A stretch of DNA of 58,562 nt, taken from assembly GCF_000766945.1 (NCBI RefSeq), contig NZ_KN266207.1, positions 19,379 through 77,940 of the forward strand. The letters run 5' to 3'. The notes beneath the pieces were generated by a model. That model was not told the DNA's origin and searched no databases. It saw only the letters and a program-made list of their open reading frames with translations. Source of the DNA: Cellvibrio mixtus subsp. mixtus J3-8. Lineage in GTDB: Bacteria; Pseudomonadota; Gammaproteobacteria; Pseudomonadales; Cellvibrionaceae. Positions 4,198-25,053 of this stretch are shown one piece after another. The translations under genes and the position numbers were made by a program. Numbering within the stretch: position 1 is the first letter of the stretch; each line of letters begins with the position of its first letter.

Positions 4198-4332
4198 GCC
4201 TTATTGTTATCTGCAGTAAGTCCATCATTGTGCATTGACGCCAGCTCCATATACGATACTGCGAATTAAACGGCTTTTTGTTATAAATGTCTACTTGTTA
4301 ACTGAAAGTTCGTCGCGTTTTATGCCTGCTTA

Positions 4333-5580
4333 TTATTTAAACTTCAGTTCCAGGTATTTTTCTTCCAATTCGGCATATTGGCGACGCAATTCAGCAAACT
4401 CTGTCTTGATATGTTCAATGTTATCCGATGTGCCAGCAGTAGCGGGTGCAGTTTCGTCGCGAGTATGTTTGAGTTCGTCGTTCTCTTTCTCCAGTTCTTC
4501 AATATTCTCTAGCAGCTCTTTGCTTTCCTGGGTGAAATCTTCAAGGGTTTGTTTGATTCTTTGGTTTTCTTCTTCGAGATGATGTTCGTTGTCCAATTGT
4601 TGTTCTTGTTCAGCAATTTTCTCATTAGCTTTATTGAGCTCTTCTTCAAGGAGCTGAACACAAGTATCTGATTCCTGCACAAAGCGAACTTGCCGTTGTA
4701 ATTGTTGTTCGAGTTCTTTTATAACCAGATCTTTTTCCTCTGGGCTTACGGCTTCCTCCAGCTTGCGTTGCAAATTACTGATTACCCTGTATTGATCCGC
4801 GGCGACATTGCGCAATTTCATAATTTCATCGGCGGCGCGCGGGTCCTGACGAATAATGTTAATAGTTTTATTTTCTTGCGGTACGCCATTGATAGCGCTG
4901 CTGGCAGAGTAAATATAATGGTTAATATCGTTGTAGCTGTCGTTATAGCGCCCTAGTAGCACTTCATATTGCTCGCGATCAGCAACGCTATCAGCCATTG
5001 CGTGGAGCTCGTTGTAGTAGCCTTGTGCATTGGCTTGCGCTTCGTTCCAACGTTTTTCCAGATCAAAAAAGAGTTTCTTGAATTTCTCCAGATTCTCAAC
5101 GCGCTTTTTATAGGTTTCAAGCTCATTGGTGTCAGTTTCGGCTGGTGGATTTTCCGTTGCAGGTTGAAGCAATGGTTCTAATGTCTGTTTGAAAATATCC
5201 CAATAACCCTCACTGCCGGGAACTGCGGTAGTGCCTAGTTCTTCTGCGCGCAAAAATGCATAGCGTAAGGCTACAATGCGCTGGTTGAGCGGGCCATCCA
5301 ATGGTTGAATTCCTGATATATCACTACGCGGTGCCAGAAAACTGAAGCGATCCTGAGTGATATCCAACTGTTCATAAATAAATTGCTTATAGGTTTTGGC
5401 TGGTGGAAGTGCCGGGGTCTGAATGTTTTTTACGGTGTCGAGAAGTTCTTTCAGTTTGCTTTGCTGGCGTTTAATTAATTTCTTTTGCTTGATAGAAAAG
5501 TAGAGCAACGCAAAGGTTGCTATGAGCAATGCCAGATAAATTTCAATGGCTACCACGAGCACAAGGGTAGGTACTTGCAT
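4333..5580 (-). CDS. Hypothetical membrane-anchored coiled-coil protein
   Basis: Not recognised as a named family. From the ATG at 5580 it starts MQVPTLVLVVAIEIYLALL, one N-terminal membrane segment. A cytoplasmic body follows with long heptad-like, Glu/Lys/Gln-rich stretches, especially the last 150 residues (EELEKENDELKH, LRRQYAELEEKYLELK). An in-frame TTG at 5628 could extend it by 16 residues, but no good ribosome site supports that. Divergent from the nitroreductase gene. A scaffold or envelope-associated role is only a guess from the architecture. Confidence 0.7.
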   Translation of the reverse strand: MQVPTLVLVVAIEIYLALLIATFALLYFSIKQKKLIKRQQSKLKELLDTVKNIQTPALPPAKTYKQFIYEQLDITQDRFSFLAPRSDISGIQPLDGPLNQRIVALRYAFLRAEELGTTAVPGSEGYWDIFKQTLEPLLQPATENPPAETDTNELETYKKRVENLEKFKKLFFDLEKRWNEAQANAQGYYNELHAMADSVADREQYEVLLGRYNDSYNDINHYIYSASSAINGVPQENKTINIIRQDPRAADEIMKLRNVAADQYRVISNLQRKLEEAVSPEEKDLVIKELEQQLQRQVRFVQESDTCVQLLEEELNKANEKIAEQEQQLDNEHHLEEENQRIKQTLEDFTQESKELLENIEELEKENDELKHTRDETAPATAGTSDNIEHIKTEFAELRRQYAELEEKYLELKFK

Positions 5581-8702: not shown

Positions 8703-9242
8703 ATGCAAAATCGTGGGCATAAAGTTCCGCCAATGTCGTGTAATGACATCCGGAATATATCGGAAATGACATCAGATTTATTAGCTGTATTTGGTGCCAA
8801 AGTTACTGGTGCTAGGAATATCGTGGAGTTGCTGGATGTTCAGCTTCCGCAACTTATGCCCGGGTTTACGCTTCAAATCCTTGAGGATTGCGAGCTACCC
8901 AATGATTATGCTCGGACTTACCCTGAAAGTTCTTTAATGCAAGTTAGGGAGTCGGTTTATGAAGGCGCGCGATCAGGTAACCCGAGAGATCGATTTACTC
9001 TTGCACATGAATTGGGGCATCTTTTTTTGCATCAAGGTGTAACAGCTTACGCGAGATCTGAAAACTCTCCCCCGCACAAGGTTTATGAGGATTCTGAATG
9101 GCAGGCTGATACTTATGCTGCGGAATTTTTAATGCCAATGGACGAGGTAAAGAGTATTAGATCTCACGTAGAGATTATGCTGCGTTTCAATGTGTCGGAA
9201 ATGGCCGCACAGAGAAGGTTTCGGGCAATAAAAAAGCGCTAA
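8703..9242 (+). CDS. ImmA/IrrE-family metallopeptidase
   Basis: A 179-aa zinc-peptidase domain protein. The active-site motif HELGH is at 102-106 inside FTLAHELGHLFLHQG, and the third ligand region is in SEWQADTYAAEFLMP (about 130-144), both family hallmarks. Ribosome site GAGG 6 bases before the ATG. Paired with the upstream XRE regulator. Family precedent (ICEBs1 ImmA, Deinococcus IrrE) is cleavage of the partner repressor under stress; the target here is inferred. Could also function as a toxin-antitoxin-like or defence module. Confidence 0.87.
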   Translation: MQNRGHKVPPMSCNDIRNISEMTSDLLAVFGAKVTGARNIVELLDVQLPQLMPGFTLQILEDCELPNDYARTYPESSLMQVRESVYEGARSGNPRDRFTLAHELGHLFLHQGVTAYARSENSPPHKVYEDSEWQADTYAAEFLMPMDEVKSIRSHVEIMLRFNVSEMAAQRRFRAIKKR

Positions 9243-9267
9243 GAAACGGCAATTTCAAAGCGCTTTT
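9232..9267. terminator. Hairpin at the end of the ImmA-like gene
   Basis: AAAAGCGCT (9232-9240) and AGCGCTTTT (9259-9267) form a 9-base stem overlapping the stop codon, with an 18-base loop and T-rich 3' side. The following 9268-9408 contains a direct repeat CTAATTAG but no gene. Confidence 0.45.
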
Positions 9268-9408
9268 CGGATACATCAAAGACTAATTAGCAGTCGGGGG
9301 TCTAATTAGAGCCAACCACCATAGCTTTTAAATTGTATAACTGCAAAATCAGTTTAACAGTTAAGGTGTTGGACAATCAATCCCCCCTCATGTTTTGAGG
9401 GCATTGTT

Positions 9409-9516
9409 ATGTTTTCAAATTCTCGCAAGCCGGTATTTGTCCGGAAGTACGTCCGTTTTCGTTTTGGACGTTGGGAAGATGTAATTTGCCATTATCGTAG
9501 TTGGCCTAGACGATAA
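9409..9516 (+). CDS. 35-aa basic hypothetical protein beside int
   Basis: Reading MFSNSRKPVFVRKYVRFRFG then RWEDVICHYRSWPRR. It is strongly basic and aromatic, with a GAGGG site 8 bases before the ATG and a terminator 6 bases after the stop. It stands alone between the ImmA-like gene and the convergent integrase. The composition suggests nucleic acid or protein binding (for example a small Xis-like factor), but there is no family evidence. Confidence 0.5.
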   Translation: MFSNSRKPVFVRKYVRFRFGRWEDVICHYRSWPRR

Positions 9517-9521
9517 TGTTG

Positions 9522-9545
9522 AAAAGGGAGCTTTGCTCCCTTTTT
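9522..9545. terminator. Bidirectional terminator between the 35-aa gene and int
   Basis: AAAAGGGAG (9522-9530) and CTCCCTTTT (9536-9544), 5-base loop, A-run before and T-run after, so it can serve both converging units. Confidence 0.85.
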
Positions 9546-9551
9546 GACTAT

Positions 9552-10613
9552 TTACCTGGTCGCGTCGATCACTCTTAACTTCCTGATGTAAACCAATCTC
9601 GTTTTTTCTGATTTGTGGCCGCCCCAGTGTTCAGTATGGTCAGTCATTCCCTTTGCCTTCAGGTCGTGGAATGTGAAAGGCTTTTCCAATTTCACGATAT
9701 GATCGTCAATCTTCAGGCCCTCGCTTACTGCTTTCTCCATAATGCGCTGCCACGCGCTATCAAAGCGATTCTTGCTCACTTTTAGACCTTTGGCGTCGTG
9801 CAGTATATAGGCTCCGTCAGGAGGTGCTGGAGCGTTTGGGTAAATGCATTTGGCTGCGATGATAGCTTCTCGCAACCGATGGCTAATTTTGGTGAGTTCA
9901 CCTAACGAGCCTTTGGTGCGCGTGATACGGATGTGTCCGTCTTTAATATCTGAATGCTTTAGGTTTCTAACCTCTTGGTTGCGCAAACGGCATAGGTATG
10001 CGAATTCCATCATGATGGCGATGTAATGGCTCTTTGTAGTTTTGTAAATGATTTCCTGTACCAAGTAATACTCCCAGTCTTCAACGTAGCGATCACGTGG
10101 TTTCTCTTCGTTTAACGTTACTTTCTCGCACGGGTTCTCGACGGGTACTTGTGCGTAGCGCTGGCTAGCCCAATTCCACGCTGCCTTAAGATATTGGATA
10201 TGCCGATTGGCGGCTACTTTATACACGGCGATATCTAGATAACGACGTATGGTGATGCGGCTTAGATCGGTGAGTAGAATGTCACCAAATTTGGTGCCTT
10301 TTTTTCCAACGGCTTCTGTAAGTGCGTTGCGATACATTTCATGCTGACGTTGCGTTGAGGTTGCATTCTTTCGATTTGCTTCGCTGTTGTTGTAGGTGTC
10401 TAGCAGCCAGCGCAGGGTATTAGTTTCGCTCTTTGATAACGATTCAAATGCTTGCCATACTTCCGATATGGGAGCATCTAATGAGCACAATCTGGTTTTT
10501 TTACCCATTTTGCCTTTACCCAAGTATTCCCAATGGAAATAGCAATTTCTCGCTGTATTTTTGTATACATAAGGTGGTAGGCGCGCGTTGTCTCTGTCTC
10601 TATCTCTTGCCAT
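9552..10613 (-). CDS. int: Tyrosine-family site-specific integrase
   Basis: Phage integrase that recombines attP with the tRNA-Arg attB. 353 aa: an N-terminal arm-binding part, a SAM-like core-binding region (about 90-170) and the catalytic domain (about 175-353). Catalytic residues seen: Arg in CRLRNQEVRNL, Lys in TRTKG, then FHDLKAKG (His present, but the usual following Arg is Lys), GGHKSEKTRLVYIRK with His, Arg and nucleophile Tyr. The start overlaps the upstream DUF4224 stop as TAATG. Last gene of the leftward early operon, as in lambda. Confidence 0.93.
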   Translation of the reverse strand: MARDRDRDNARLPPYVYKNTARNCYFHWEYLGKGKMGKKTRLCSLDAPISEVWQAFESLSKSETNTLRWLLDTYNNSEANRKNATSTQRQHEMYRNALTEAVGKKGTKFGDILLTDLSRITIRRYLDIAVYKVAANRHIQYLKAAWNWASQRYAQVPVENPCEKVTLNEEKPRDRYVEDWEYYLVQEIIYKTTKSHYIAIMMEFAYLCRLRNQEVRNLKHSDIKDGHIRITRTKGSLGELTKISHRLREAIIAAKCIYPNAPAPPDGAYILHDAKGLKVSKNRFDSAWQRIMEKAVSEGLKIDDHIVKLEKPFTFHDLKAKGMTDHTEHWGGHKSEKTRLVYIRKLRVIDATR

Positions 10614-12283: not shown

Positions 12284-12628
12284 CTATCTCCAGATATAAC
12301 ACTCAAAACCGTAACCGCTTGTTGGAAAATTCAAGCAAAAATTATCGATTTCTTCGTTAGTGGTTGAGTCGTTGATCGAGTGCATGAACTCTGCCCAAAT
12401 GCGAAAAGTTTCAGCATTCAAAATGTCTATGAGCTCATTGGCGTGGTCGTCCAGGATTGGTTTTAAATCGCCTAGAAAAATAGGGTCATGGACGATAATT
12501 TCGTTTTCTTCCGTCTCGGTTCTGTTGGGCAGTTTTACCCACATACGAACCTTGAATTTTTTGCGGCCCTTGGGCGTGTAAAGCAGATGCGATTCGTCTG
12601 GCGCGCGGAAAGTTAAAAAAGGTTTCAT
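12284..12628 (-). CDS. Hypothetical early-operon protein
   Basis: 114 aa, mixed alpha/beta character, acidic middle (DPIFLGDLKPILDDHANELI). Its ATG overlaps the methyltransferase stop as TAATG. No family recognised and no membrane segment. Confidence 0.65.
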   Translation of the reverse strand: MKPFLTFRAPDESHLLYTPKGRKKFKVRMWVKLPNRTETEENEIIVHDPIFLGDLKPILDDHANELIDILNAETFRIWAEFMHSINDSTTNEEIDNFCLNFPTSGYGFECYIWR

Positions 12629-13965
12629 TACGCTGCCAGCCTCAAATAACGGGTATCGTAATTCGCAAGCACTAGGGCTTCGGCCATATCCGGGCAGACG
12701 CTATTGCCGCATCTCGCAACTTGTTTGTATTTGGGAATGCGATTGCCAAATAAATCACGATCAATAATGTAATCTGCGGGAAAGCCCTGCGCGGCAAAAA
12801 GCTCATGTGGCTCCAGCATGCGCATTCCAATATCTGCGATTTGATATTGCTCGCCGCGTACAGTTACTAAGCCGAAGCGATCTTGCGCGGTGATGGTGTG
12901 CAATGGTTCGCGTAAACTGATACCGCTGTCTGCGCTGCTGTAATACTTAATTAAAAATGCGCGCACTTCACCGACGTGTGCAACGTTGGTTAGCGTTGGC
13001 ATTGGATCAAAAAGCGATTGGCCAACCTGGTTGTTTTTGAGTTTTATAAGGTGGCTGGTCACAAGGCAGTGTTCTTGCTTTGTGGTGATAGTGGTTAGTG
13101 GCTGATCAAGCCCGTATTGCATTCCGTCGCCGCCAAAGCCCTGCTGTCCAATGCGAACGATAAAGGGCTTTGGGTCGTCGATTACAAAGCGCTGGATGCC
13201 CTTATAGATGCGCTGTAGGGTGTTATCTGAAAGGGGTCGCTTTCGACCGAATATGCTCGGTACCGGAATTGACCAATCAATAATTTCATGTGCGGGACGC
13301 CATTTTTTTAACCCGGACTGTCTAAAGTTTAAAATGCGTGGATCGCCGTGCGTTGGTGATGGCCACGCGATTTCTTCCCCGTCACAGCGAGCAACCAGAA
13401 ACAATCTTTTACGAATCGTTGGCGTGCCATAATCAGATGCACGCAAATTGCGCCATTCAACGTTGTACCCGCACTCGCGCAATTGCCCGACAAAATTGTT
13501 AAAAGTTTTGCCTTTGCGTTTAGGACAGGGCTTGCCATCTACTACTGGTCCCCAGTTAACAAATTCCTCCACGTTTTCAAGCATGATCCGTTGTGGCTTC
13601 ACTGTGGCGGCCCAACGATTAGCAACCCACGCTAATCCGCGTATGTTCTTGTTTACAGGCGTTGAACCCTTAGCCTTACTAAAATGCTTGCAATCGGGCG
13701 AGAACCACGCCAATCCCACTGGCTGGCCATTAGTTACCTTGCGCGGATCAATGTCCCACACCGATTCGCAATAGTGCTTAGTGTGAGGGTGGTTTATTGA
13801 ATGCATTGCGATAGCATCTGGATCGTGATTAATAGCGATATCAACTGGGCGCCCCAGCGCACGCTCGATGCCTGTGCTGGCGCCGCCGCCTCCCGCGAAG
13901 TTGTCCACTATCAGCGGCTCAAGCCAAAGATTTTGCTGCGGTGATGTGCGATAACTGGTTAACAT
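12628..13965 (-). CDS. C5-cytosine DNA methyltransferase
   Basis: 445 aa from ATG 13965 (AAGG site 5 bases upstream; a longer frame to 14121 lacks support). It transfers methyl from SAM to cytosine C5. Motif I VDNFAGGGGASTGIERA (about 20-36); motif IV is FSPDCKHFSKAKG, where the nucleophile Cys sits in PDC rather than the usual PCQ; motif VI ENVEEF; motif VIII YGTPTIRKRLFLVAR; motif X VARCGNSVCPDMAEAL. No restriction enzyme is adjacent, so it is probably an orphan phage enzyme protecting phage DNA or altering regulation. The PDC variant is known in phage-type members as I remember it. Confidence 0.93.
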   Translation of the reverse strand: MLTSYRTSPQQNLWLEPLIVDNFAGGGGASTGIERALGRPVDIAINHDPDAIAMHSINHPHTKHYCESVWDIDPRKVTNGQPVGLAWFSPDCKHFSKAKGSTPVNKNIRGLAWVANRWAATVKPQRIMLENVEEFVNWGPVVDGKPCPKRKGKTFNNFVGQLRECGYNVEWRNLRASDYGTPTIRKRLFLVARCDGEEIAWPSPTHGDPRILNFRQSGLKKWRPAHEIIDWSIPVPSIFGRKRPLSDNTLQRIYKGIQRFVIDDPKPFIVRIGQQGFGGDGMQYGLDQPLTTITTKQEHCLVTSHLIKLKNNQVGQSLFDPMPTLTNVAHVGEVRAFLIKYYSSADSGISLREPLHTITAQDRFGLVTVRGEQYQIADIGMRMLEPHELFAAQGFPADYIIDRDLFGNRIPKYKQVARCGNSVCPDMAEALVLANYDTRYLRLAA

Positions 13966-14080
13966 TTTTTGCCTTGTGGTTGTGCGATTTCGCTTACAAA
14001 AATCTCCGCTTATTGCGGCTATATCTACTGCTTTTTTGCCGATAAAGTGGCGTTGTTTCTTCGGAAACTTCTTGTAATTT

Positions 14081-14106
14081 GCCGGGGAGAGCCCCGGCGC
14101 TTTTTT
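14081..14106 (+). terminator. Strong terminator-like hairpin facing the + strand
   Basis: GCCGGGG (14081-14087) AGA-type loop GCCCCGGC (14091-14098), then GC and TTTTTT on the + strand. All surrounding genes are on the minus strand, so it either blocks antisense transcription or ends a short + strand RNA. Confidence 0.5.
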
Positions 14107-14160
14107 AAAATTAATCCGCAAGCCAACGCTGGCGCCATAAGGAAATGGGCTGGCGTTTTT

Positions 14161-15501: not shown

Positions 15502-16338
15502 TTAAATTTCTAACTTGCCGCGATAGAGTTCCAAGTCAGTCTCAACAAAGCGATCGTTGAGAATGTCGAGGAAGTTTTCGCTAATGGTTTCCTGCATGGT
15601 TTCCAATTGGCGAATGGCAATTTTGAAAATTGGTGCTTCATGTGCGGTAATCAGTGCGATGCGGCACTCGAATGTTTGTTCATCCAGACCGCTGTACGGG
15701 ATGCAGGTGAATTTCATCAGGGAAGGTAGGGCTGACTCGCTCTTGGCTTCGATCGATTCCAGCGCAGATTTGGTGGCTTTAAAGTCCTGTGCTTCGTGAT
15801 CTTCTTTGCGAGAGGATTCAATGGTTACTCGGCGCACTGCTGAAATAACTTTGCGCGTTTCCAATATGTCGCCTTCGCTATCAAGGAACTCCAAATTGGG
15901 TACCCAGTCTTCAATCCATTCGGCGAATTGCTTTTGAGAAAAATTCATGTTGGCGGTGTTAAGCAGGGCGCGGAGTTCTGCGCTCTTATCAAGCGACAAA
16001 ACACTAGTGAAATCACCATGGCCCGGATTGTTCGCATCACCCAAGTTGAAAAACACTTTGGCGGTCATTTTGTCCGGATCAATAAAACCAGTAGATTCCC
16101 CTTTAACTTGATGCGCTTTCACAAATGCAACAAAGTCATTGATTACGGTGGTGTTCATCTGGCCACGGAAGCGAGAGCGCTTCGGCTGAAATTTTTCCAG
16201 CTCGACCAGGCTAAAATCTTGCGGTACTACAGCTACAGGTTTTGCATTCGAGGCAAGGCGTTTGGTGATCGCTTCGTTAGCGGTAGCGACTGCATCTGCT
16301 TTGCGAATTTCCTGAATTGCTGAACTATCTAAACTCAT
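15502..16338 (-). CDS. DUF2303-family phage protein (YfdQ-like)
   Basis: 278 aa, cytoplasmic. Recognised by the pattern LVELEKFQPKRSRFRGQMNT and later FKIAIRQLETMQETISENFL, shared with DUF2303 proteins of temperate phages (E. coli YfdQ is one). Function unknown in the family; usually in early operons near recombination or inhibitor genes. Preceded by the gene at 16384, its usual neighbour. Confidence 0.82.
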   Translation of the reverse strand: MSLDSSAIQEIRKADAVATANEAITKRLASNAKPVAVVPQDFSLVELEKFQPKRSRFRGQMNTTVINDFVAFVKAHQVKGESTGFIDPDKMTAKVFFNLGDANNPGHGDFTSVLSLDKSAELRALLNTANMNFSQKQFAEWIEDWVPNLEFLDSEGDILETRKVISAVRRVTIESSRKEDHEAQDFKATKSALESIEAKSESALPSLMKFTCIPYSGLDEQTFECRIALITAHEAPIFKIAIRQLETMQETISENFLDILNDRFVETDLELYRGKLEI

Positions 16339-24361: not shown

Positions 24362-24630
24362 CCCGTAATCCCGTAAATCATCCCGTAATTGATGATTTTT
24401 TAACTTATTGAATAATAAGGAAATCCCGTAAACCCGTAATCCCGTAATTGTTTTTTTGCGCGCGTGCATATGTGCGCGCACGCGCGCGACCTATCGGAAG
24501 CAATGCGAGATAACTAAAAATATTTCCACGCGAGGAAATATAAATACGGGATTACGGGTTTACGGGATTTTATTAATTTTCAATAACTTATCAGTTTTTA
24601 ATTTACGGGATGCTTTACGGGATTTACGGG
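24362..24630. repeat. Mirror-symmetric iteron array, candidate replication origin
   Basis: Six CCCGTAA copies on the left (start 24362, 24370, 24382, 24425, 24433, 24441) and six (T/A)TACGGG copies on the right (start 24544, 24552, 24560, 24603, 24615, 24624). The two halves are symmetric about 24495.5, with only the outermost right copy shifted by one base. The inner triplets form an inverted repeat of about 26 bases. The centre contains 31 alternating purine-pyrimidine bases (24458-24488) and a hairpin TATTTCC/GGAAATA (24521-24540). No gene is supported in 24362-24672. Confidence 0.85.
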
Positions 24631-24672
24631 AGGAAAAATTTCTTGGTTTGGTTGGTGATTATCGGGGTATTT

Positions 24673-25053
24673 ATGCAAGGCGAAAAAAGCTGCTCACCAG
24701 ATTGGTTTATTCCGCTTTTGGAGGAGTGGGGAATCGAGTACGGTAGAGGGAAAATTGTGGATCTTAGTGCGCGGTCTGGCACTCAAGTTCTTTGGGGGAA
24801 AGGTAGGGCGCGTAAAGGGTTTAACTCCAGTGAATCGGAACGCGCTTTAGTAAACAAGGCTTTCGAAGAGTTGCGAAAACTCAATGAATACGCGGCGGGA
24901 ATGATTCAGTTTGTGTATTTGAGTGGTCGTCGTAAATCGATGTGTGATGTAGAAAATTGCTACAACTTAAGTAACCGCGCTGCAGGTCAGGAAGTGAGTG
25001 CAGCAGAAGCGTTGATGTATAACGAGTTCATGAGATTTAAACGAGTGGCATAA
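24673..25053 (+). CDS. Q-like late regulator candidate
   Basis: 126 aa from ATG 24673 (GGGG-type site upstream). The C-terminal half, SESERALVNKAFEELRKLNE followed by an aromatic-basic segment and SAAEALMYNEF, resembles the sigma-4-like/HTH pattern of phage antitermination Q or late activator proteins. Its place before the late promoter and lysis genes fits that job. Similarity is weak and pattern-based. Confidence 0.5.
   Translation: MQGEKSCSPDWFIPLLEEWGIEYGRGKIVDLSARSGTQVLWGKGRARKGFNSSESERALVNKAFEELRKLNEYAAGMIQFVYLSGRRKSMCDVENCYNLSNRAAGQEVSAAEALMYNEFMRFKRVA

Follow-up and report, generated by a model that had tools for sequence, protein, structure and literature searches.

What is the role of a set of short repeats that stand, as two mirrored halves, directly behind a primase-helicase gene in Cellvibrio mixtus subsp. 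mixtus J3-8? The window analysed here is the whole stretch of 58,562 nucleotides in which they lie, and all positions are those of the window. At 24362-24630 two half-sites of six iterons each face one another across a 96-bp core, 3' of a gene for an SF3-type DUF5906 primase-helicase. Judged by its sequence and by comparison with relatives, this region is most probably the replication origin of a prophage, for a self-loading SF3 helicase of which one hexamer would be placed on each half, head to head.

The array and its setting in the prophage

Reading away from the gene, three copies of CCCGTAA are followed after a 43-bp step by three more, then by the core and by the same series reversed (Table 1). 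A first description made from the letters of the window alone (the sequence-only reading) had counted twelve copies, six in each orientation. This holds for eleven exact copies, six on the forward and five on the reverse strand, the twelfth (ATACGGG, at 24544) having one mismatch. The steps are 8, 12, 43, 8 and 8 bp on the left and 8, 8, 43, 12 and 9 bp on the right, and about a centre at 24495.5 five iteron pairs are exact mirror partners with the outermost pair 1 bp off, all as had been stated; the array also follows the primase-helicase gene as described, its first iteron sitting directly behind the stop codon. The array matches its own reverse complement with 71% identity over 269 bp (E 1.9e-26) and is therefore an imperfect palindrome, so that the palindrome of roughly 270 bases first reported is right in extent and is imperfect in sequence.

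Exact CCCGTAA occurs 15 times in the 58.5-kb window, and 11 of these occurrences are in the array (100 shuffles gave a mean of 4.81 and a maximum of 10). These counts bear on the possibility that the repeats are centromere or incompatibility iterons, forming a partition or copy-control site beside the start site. Iteron arrays do serve partition and copy-control roles in plasmids. The window holds no second CCCGTAA array, the other four exact matches being scattered where 4.8 are expected by chance, and this is the least probable of the readings weighed here.

Table 1. Features of the array, its core and the adjoining gene (window coordinates)
Feature	Position	Strand	Remarks
Primase-helicase, presumed initiator, 931 aa	21566-24361	+	PriCT_2 aa 11-81; DUF5906 SF3-type helicase domain aa 635-742; C-terminal winged-helix-like domain
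Left outer iterons	24362-24368, 24370-24376, 24382-24388	+	CCCGTAA matches
IHF-like site, one mismatch	24401-24413	-	gap scan; coordinates placed by eye
Left inner iteron triplet	24425-24431, 24433-24439, 24441-24447	+	CCCGTAA matches
Alternating purine-pyrimidine tract, 32 bp, Z-DNA-prone	24457-24488		longest in window, next 17; gene-proximal core half
A+T-rich distal core half, presumed melting site	24496-24543		35% G+C vs 58% proximal
Small hairpin ATATTTCC-ACGCGA-GGAAATAT with CGCGAG box (24529-24534)	24520-24541		read from sequence
Right inner iteron triplet	24544-24550 (one mismatch), 24552-24558, 24560-24566	-	CCCGTAA matches
IHF-like site, one mismatch	24578-24590	+	gap scan; coordinates placed by eye
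Right outer iterons	24603-24609, 24615-24621, 24624-24630	-	CCCGTAA matches

The core has an overall G+C content of 46.9%, divided between a proximal half of 58.3% and a distal half of 35.4%. The alternating run that had been placed at the centre (31 bases, 24458-24488) does exist, but it is one base longer and lies to the left of the mirror centre; the small hairpin described there was found. In the literature on related origins, as far as the available text of those papers goes, no known origin element resembles a 32-bp alternating tract. Each 43-bp gap holds one IHF-like site, absent from the list of the sequence-only reading, and the two are exact mirror partners. The IHF consensus used for the scan is WATCAANNNNTTR.

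Pfam calls PriCT_2 and DUF5906 in the 931-aa ORF, the latter at 61.6 bits (cut-off 27.6), and the protein matches PHROG DNA primase families. No Toprim call was made in it at E 0.001, and this domain was called in a relative (L010) and in P4 alpha. When a profile of the helicase part was compared with the PDB the sole match was the C-terminal region of the NrS-1 polymerase (E 2e-25). An AlphaFold2 model (mean pLDDT 92.6) ends in a helix-helix-strand-strand arrangement (410-423, 431-439, 443-452, 455-463), which in the model may be read as winged-helix-like. Foldseek also placed NrS-1 at the top (E 4.7e-19), followed by the D5 and SaPI5 primase-helicases with poor overall superposition, and PriRep1 was among the matches.

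The window is a prophage region, with genes for a gpA-type terminase, a lambda-type portal and a minor tail Z protein downstream. A C-5 cytosine DNA methylase gene (12628-14121, reverse strand) and a DUF2303 gene (15502-16338) are also present, and one relative found by protein search is a Cellvibrio MAG contig. GC skew over the prophage has no turning point at the array, a measure that is confounded by local gene direction.

Recurrence of the layout and variation of the word

Scans of viral contigs, genomes and named phages with protein and helicase alignments gave 203 loci. Fourteen that lacked a helicase ORF by the profiles were removed (189 left), as were 11 more with less than 430 bp downstream or with N (178 left), and the rest fell into 106 non-redundant clusters (85% identity over 250 bp). 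A locus was called positive when its word scored at least 7.5 and an inverted inner set was present (core support 2); these thresholds were fixed after the 106 loci had been viewed, and profiles A2 and A3 draw on loci, mostly array-bearing, in which the downstream DNA had been inspected beforehand. The positive loci, 85 in number, are the basis for what is said on words, halves, IHF-like sites and pairing, and the 95 with core support at any score are the basis for the core features.

By this rule a mirrored array lies just 3' of the helicase gene in 85 of the 106 loci and in none of 408 control stretches taken from those loci (0/105, 0/106, 0/106 and 0/91), a comparison which supports the reading of the array as an origin beside its initiator. 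The sequence-only reading had proposed a search of other DUF5906-encoding prophages for this layout, and had named a lack of the motif next to homologous primase-helicases as a refutation; as far as the layout goes no such lack is seen, whereas the word CCCGTAA itself is not conserved. Over 453 bases that span the stop codon and the DNA behind it, the best 7-mer score has a median of 10.0, compared with 4.5 in shuffled and 4.5 in in-gene sequence, with just 51 of the 106 loci scoring above the single best shuffled score (10.0). At least four mirrored pairs were seen in 71 of the 106 loci and in none of the shuffled (0/106) or in-gene (0/105) stretches, and the mean number of mirrored pairs was 4.25 against 2.74 when the steps and orientations of the same array were shuffled. 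The rule was failed by 21 of the 106 loci. Seven named phages had been fetched, and pAN, PG1, Halomonas H4907 and Stenotrophomonas S1 pass whereas Pseudomonas phages LPPA56 and Turba and Moraxella Mcat7 fail (7.0 each); failing Mcat7 has five mirrored pairs, a number reached by 0 of 100 shuffles. In the literature as searched, mainly open-access and at the level of abstracts, this mirrored layout is undescribed for DUF5906 phages.

Among 16 loci fetched later and scored with the rule unchanged, eight were positive, and control stretches of the same loci scored at most 5.5; no filter for similarity to the first set was applied to these 16 (L217 is similar to L111), and L215 and L211 were omitted as already included. 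The score is exactly 7.5 in two of the passing loci (L214 and L225); a core longer than 130 bp is the sole reason for the failure of L219, and L226 scores 6.0 despite a clear 3+3 set. Since half of these later loci pass, the layout is common, and not universal, across the wider helicase family. Wider searches with the helicase found it in 4 of 369 genomes class-wide and in 14 of 398 phylum-wide, the window's own genome included. It was absent from the plasmids of PLSDB, and for this reason no free replicon backs the origin reading. Outside the DUF5906 group, L010 has a related primase with a VapE-like helicase and a 3+3 inverted set that scores 8.5, and its VapE-type viral relatives L209 and L210 both pass the rule. 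In all three, inverted triplets flank a core of about 90 bp, the VapE-like domain call being that of L010.

The first repeat starts at a median of +7 bp from the helicase stop codon (87 loci with a score of at least 8). That the array starts at this stop codon across the family argues against its being an operator, at which the repeats would bind a regulator of the downstream transcription unit with no part in replication, as does the agreement of the layout with annotated origin parts of P4 and Sfi21. The array does precede a co-directional gene (24673-25053), and in Halomonas phage H4907 the gene in the corresponding place is annotated as an antitermination protein; on balance we regard an operator as highly improbable. 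The window's gene has no Pfam or PHROG match. Its ORF is listed as 24610-25053 and would begin within the right outer iterons, the ATG at 24673 being the likelier start.

The 85 positive arrays have 61 different consensus words, of which those of 82 arrays are linked in a chain through common 5-mers. Word similarity follows identity of the initiator C-terminus, given the helicase core, weakly (partial r 0.152, 0/500), and follows the helicase core, given the C-terminus, with a partial r of 0.084 (3/500). A wing motif, D[LVM]xY, goes with words that contain CCG (16/19 against 10/66), although the motif was chosen post hoc and kinship was ignored in this comparison. The recognition helix did not stand out in a column-wise covariation analysis.

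Half-sites, gaps and core across the family

Six is the commonest number of iterons in a half-site, being found in 45 of 85 left and 50 of 85 right halves, and 6+6 is the most frequent pairing (29/85); these counts include every copy that lies up to about 120 bp from the core and has no more than one mismatch, which makes the count for any one half uncertain. The inner repeats of the family have a spacing of 8-9 bp, and the outer sets mostly start 50-65 bp beyond them. Agreement in repeat position and orientation is 0.532 between the two halves of a single locus, compared with 0.357 between loci (permutation maximum 0.413, with 0 of 1000 permutations reaching the observed value). Agreement within a locus is thus above that across loci, and the halves therefore evolve together.

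The palindrome itself could in principle be the element recognised, with the initiator binding a cruciform extruded from the 270 bp, as proposed for the archaeal plasmid pRN1 and the Bordetella phage BIP-1. According to the available text of the pRN1 study, a 100-bp stem-loop just 3' of the primase-helicase gene is required there, and both elements, like the array, immediately follow the gene for a primase-SF3 helicase that ends in a winged helix, but no iterons were found by the authors in what that text covers (PMC4234260). The replication gene of Bordetella BPP-1 has no array above background (score 4.0). In the window the array DNA folds as a single strand far better than shuffles (z -12.7) and its spacers are partly mirrored (33/57 positions). 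A working cruciform should have paired spacers too, and the family does not fit this expectation: over the 85 arrays complementarity is 76% in the iterons (1840/2424) and 37% in the spacers (1489/4005, with 26% expected from composition), and is 32% in the core arms. The 8-12 and 43-bp steps recur whereas spacer sequence does not, and in several loci (for example L039, L126, L134 and L100) the right outer repeats run in the same direction as the left, an arrangement that cannot form a long stem. Pairing along the whole stem, as in pRN1, is thus not a property of the family. The window's own array is unusually palindromic, so that a cruciform has some probability at this one locus; as an account of the array we consider it very unlikely. 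The preferred reading remains that of two half-sites bound iteron by iteron.

IHF-like sites with at most one mismatch are present in 21 of 85 left gaps and 30 of 85 right gaps, the rate in 6279 control windows being 2.3%. Perfect sites are present in seven left and five right gaps (of 85 each), compared with 0.03% of control windows. In 53 of the 85 loci neither gap has such a site at one mismatch. In gaps of this kind (L013, L056, L059, L154, L128, L159 and others) a shared box was noticed by eye, in forms of CATGCGGGTTTCAG or CGGGCTGTAG and often on both sides.

Both helicase groups have an alternating purine-pyrimidine tract in their cores. It is longer than any in same-size stretches of its own locus in 40 of 56 loci of group a2 and 29 of 39 of group a3. 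As a general gene-proximal element the tract was rejected, since it occupies the core half nearer the gene in 54 of 56 loci of a2 but does so in just 18 of 39 of a3. The distal half is more A+T-rich than the gene in all 56 loci of a2 and in 16 of 39 of a3. Of the 56 loci of a2, 29 have a YGCGAG box within the final 40 nt of the core and none (0/56) has one within the initial 40 nt; in a3 a single locus of 39 has it within the final 40 nt. The hairpin, considered as a conserved stem, is weak (mean 4.36 bp against 3.91 shuffled in a2, and 5.26 against 4.42 in a3), and the conserved part in a2 is the box rather than the stem.

The anatomy of the array, its recurrence and position, the concerted halves and the IHF-like sites are seen directly in the sequences. 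For events in the cell we infer the following, with binding, the two hexamers, direction and every cellular role included in the inference. The winged-helix-like C-terminal domain of the primase-helicase would bind the 7-bp iterons, and an IHF-type protein in the 43-bp gap would loop each half-site back on itself. Each half-site could then assemble one SF3 hexamer, six iterons corresponding to six subunits. With two hexamers placed head to head, the A+T-rich distal half of the core would be opened by them and the DNA unwound outward to either side; the primase-helicase itself would supply primers and a host polymerase would copy the strands. The CG-rich alternating tract may absorb supercoiling or act as a one-sided barrier, and this is the least certain step.

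Comparison with known origins

The DUF5906 cut-off (27.6) is reached by P4 alpha (38.2 bits), by the Sfi21 replication protein and by the NrS-1 polymerase. P4 resembles the window in its DUF5906 helicase domain, and it has an annotated ori and crr that are made of short repeats. P4 alpha has no match to the A5 helicase profile at E 10. It had been suggested that the array follows its gene as ori follows alpha in P4-like replicons; in the P4 record, however, it is crr (4291-4590) that adjoins the 3' end of alpha, and the annotated ori (9086-9809) lies beyond its 5' side. The type 1 repeats of P4 ori have offsets from the innermost of 0, 10, 53 (reversed), 75, 86 and 96. Five of 170 family half-arrays fall within 2 bp of these at all five positions and 130 of 170 match at two or fewer, a P4-like example being one half of L059 (0, 8, 53 reversed, 75, 86, 95). 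The window's own halves (left offsets 0, 8, 16, 59, 71, 79) do not follow the P4 series closely. P4 has one half-array at ori with the crr repeat sets about 5 kb away, whereas in the window both halves face each other in a single array.

In Sfi21 the annotated origin lies, as in the window, directly 3' of a DUF5906 gene, and its inner AGTTACT repeats are 8 bp apart and inverted around a 69-bp core. In contrast to the window this core has 12% G+C and lacks a CG tract, and the outer repeats are irregular; the best word there reaches 7.5, a value also reached by the top in-gene control. A Pox_D5 C-terminal domain was called in the Sfi21 protein and none in that of the window. The SaPIbov1 origin is reported to consist of two iteron sets that are symmetric around an A+T-rich region, and the words are said to be specific between SaPIs. 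The sequence-only reading knew of no described origin with this exact mirrored geometry; mirrored iteron sets as such have precedents in these two cases, the mirrored inner repeats of the annotated Sfi21 origin and the symmetric sets reported for SaPIbov1. The window has a two-set symmetry, 6+6 and mirrored, of the kind described for SaPI origins.

The available text of a study of Cch2, a related initiator, states that the iterons immediately behind the Cch2 gene are recognised by the C-terminal domain of the protein, and cites the same for SaPI Rep, which apparently binds as two hexamers; the SaPI origin lies directly downstream of a self-loading helicase initiator (PMC7581432). The array in the window has the corresponding position behind its primase-helicase gene. 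The SaPI and window proteins are distant (10-14% identity in Foldseek alignments). In GN-PICI, the ori is placed downstream of pri in the text available (PMC10111431). The C-terminal region of the NrS-1 polymerase is described in the accessible part of its report as a hexameric ring (PMC7102993), and this AEP-type primase-polymerase differs from the window's protein in that class. A dense AAAGTGT array (score 14.5) stands directly after its gene (L208:17065-17440) and overlaps an annotated hypothetical ORF; its orientation and spacing are irregular and it is not mirrored, unlike the window. By its sequence this array is a candidate for the origin served by an enzyme whose biochemistry has been studied.

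By analogy, the presumed origin in the window very probably works like those of the SaPIs and P4, and would extend the known phage and satellite origins without being a wholly new kind. There is about an even chance that it belongs to a widespread class of phage origins with two face-to-face half-origins, one iteron per SF3 subunit and an IHF-type bend, in which geometry is kept while the word and the winged helix diversify together. For few systems is it understood in detail how a ring helicase first gets onto double-stranded DNA. Were the class real, nature would have supplied numerous orthogonal pairs of initiator and origin, together with a fixed ruler by which a double hexamer is loaded head to head on the duplex. 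A constant spacing with a changing word separates geometry from sequence, and the rules of two-ring assembly could be read from natural variants and tested by simple binding assays. Origins in many unannotated prophages could also be sought by a simple rule, namely 7-mers in mirrored order at a spacing of 8-9 bp immediately behind a DUF5906 gene. P4 would then carry a half-origin alone, and the origins of P4, Sfi21 and the SaPIs could be set side by side as variants of one plan.
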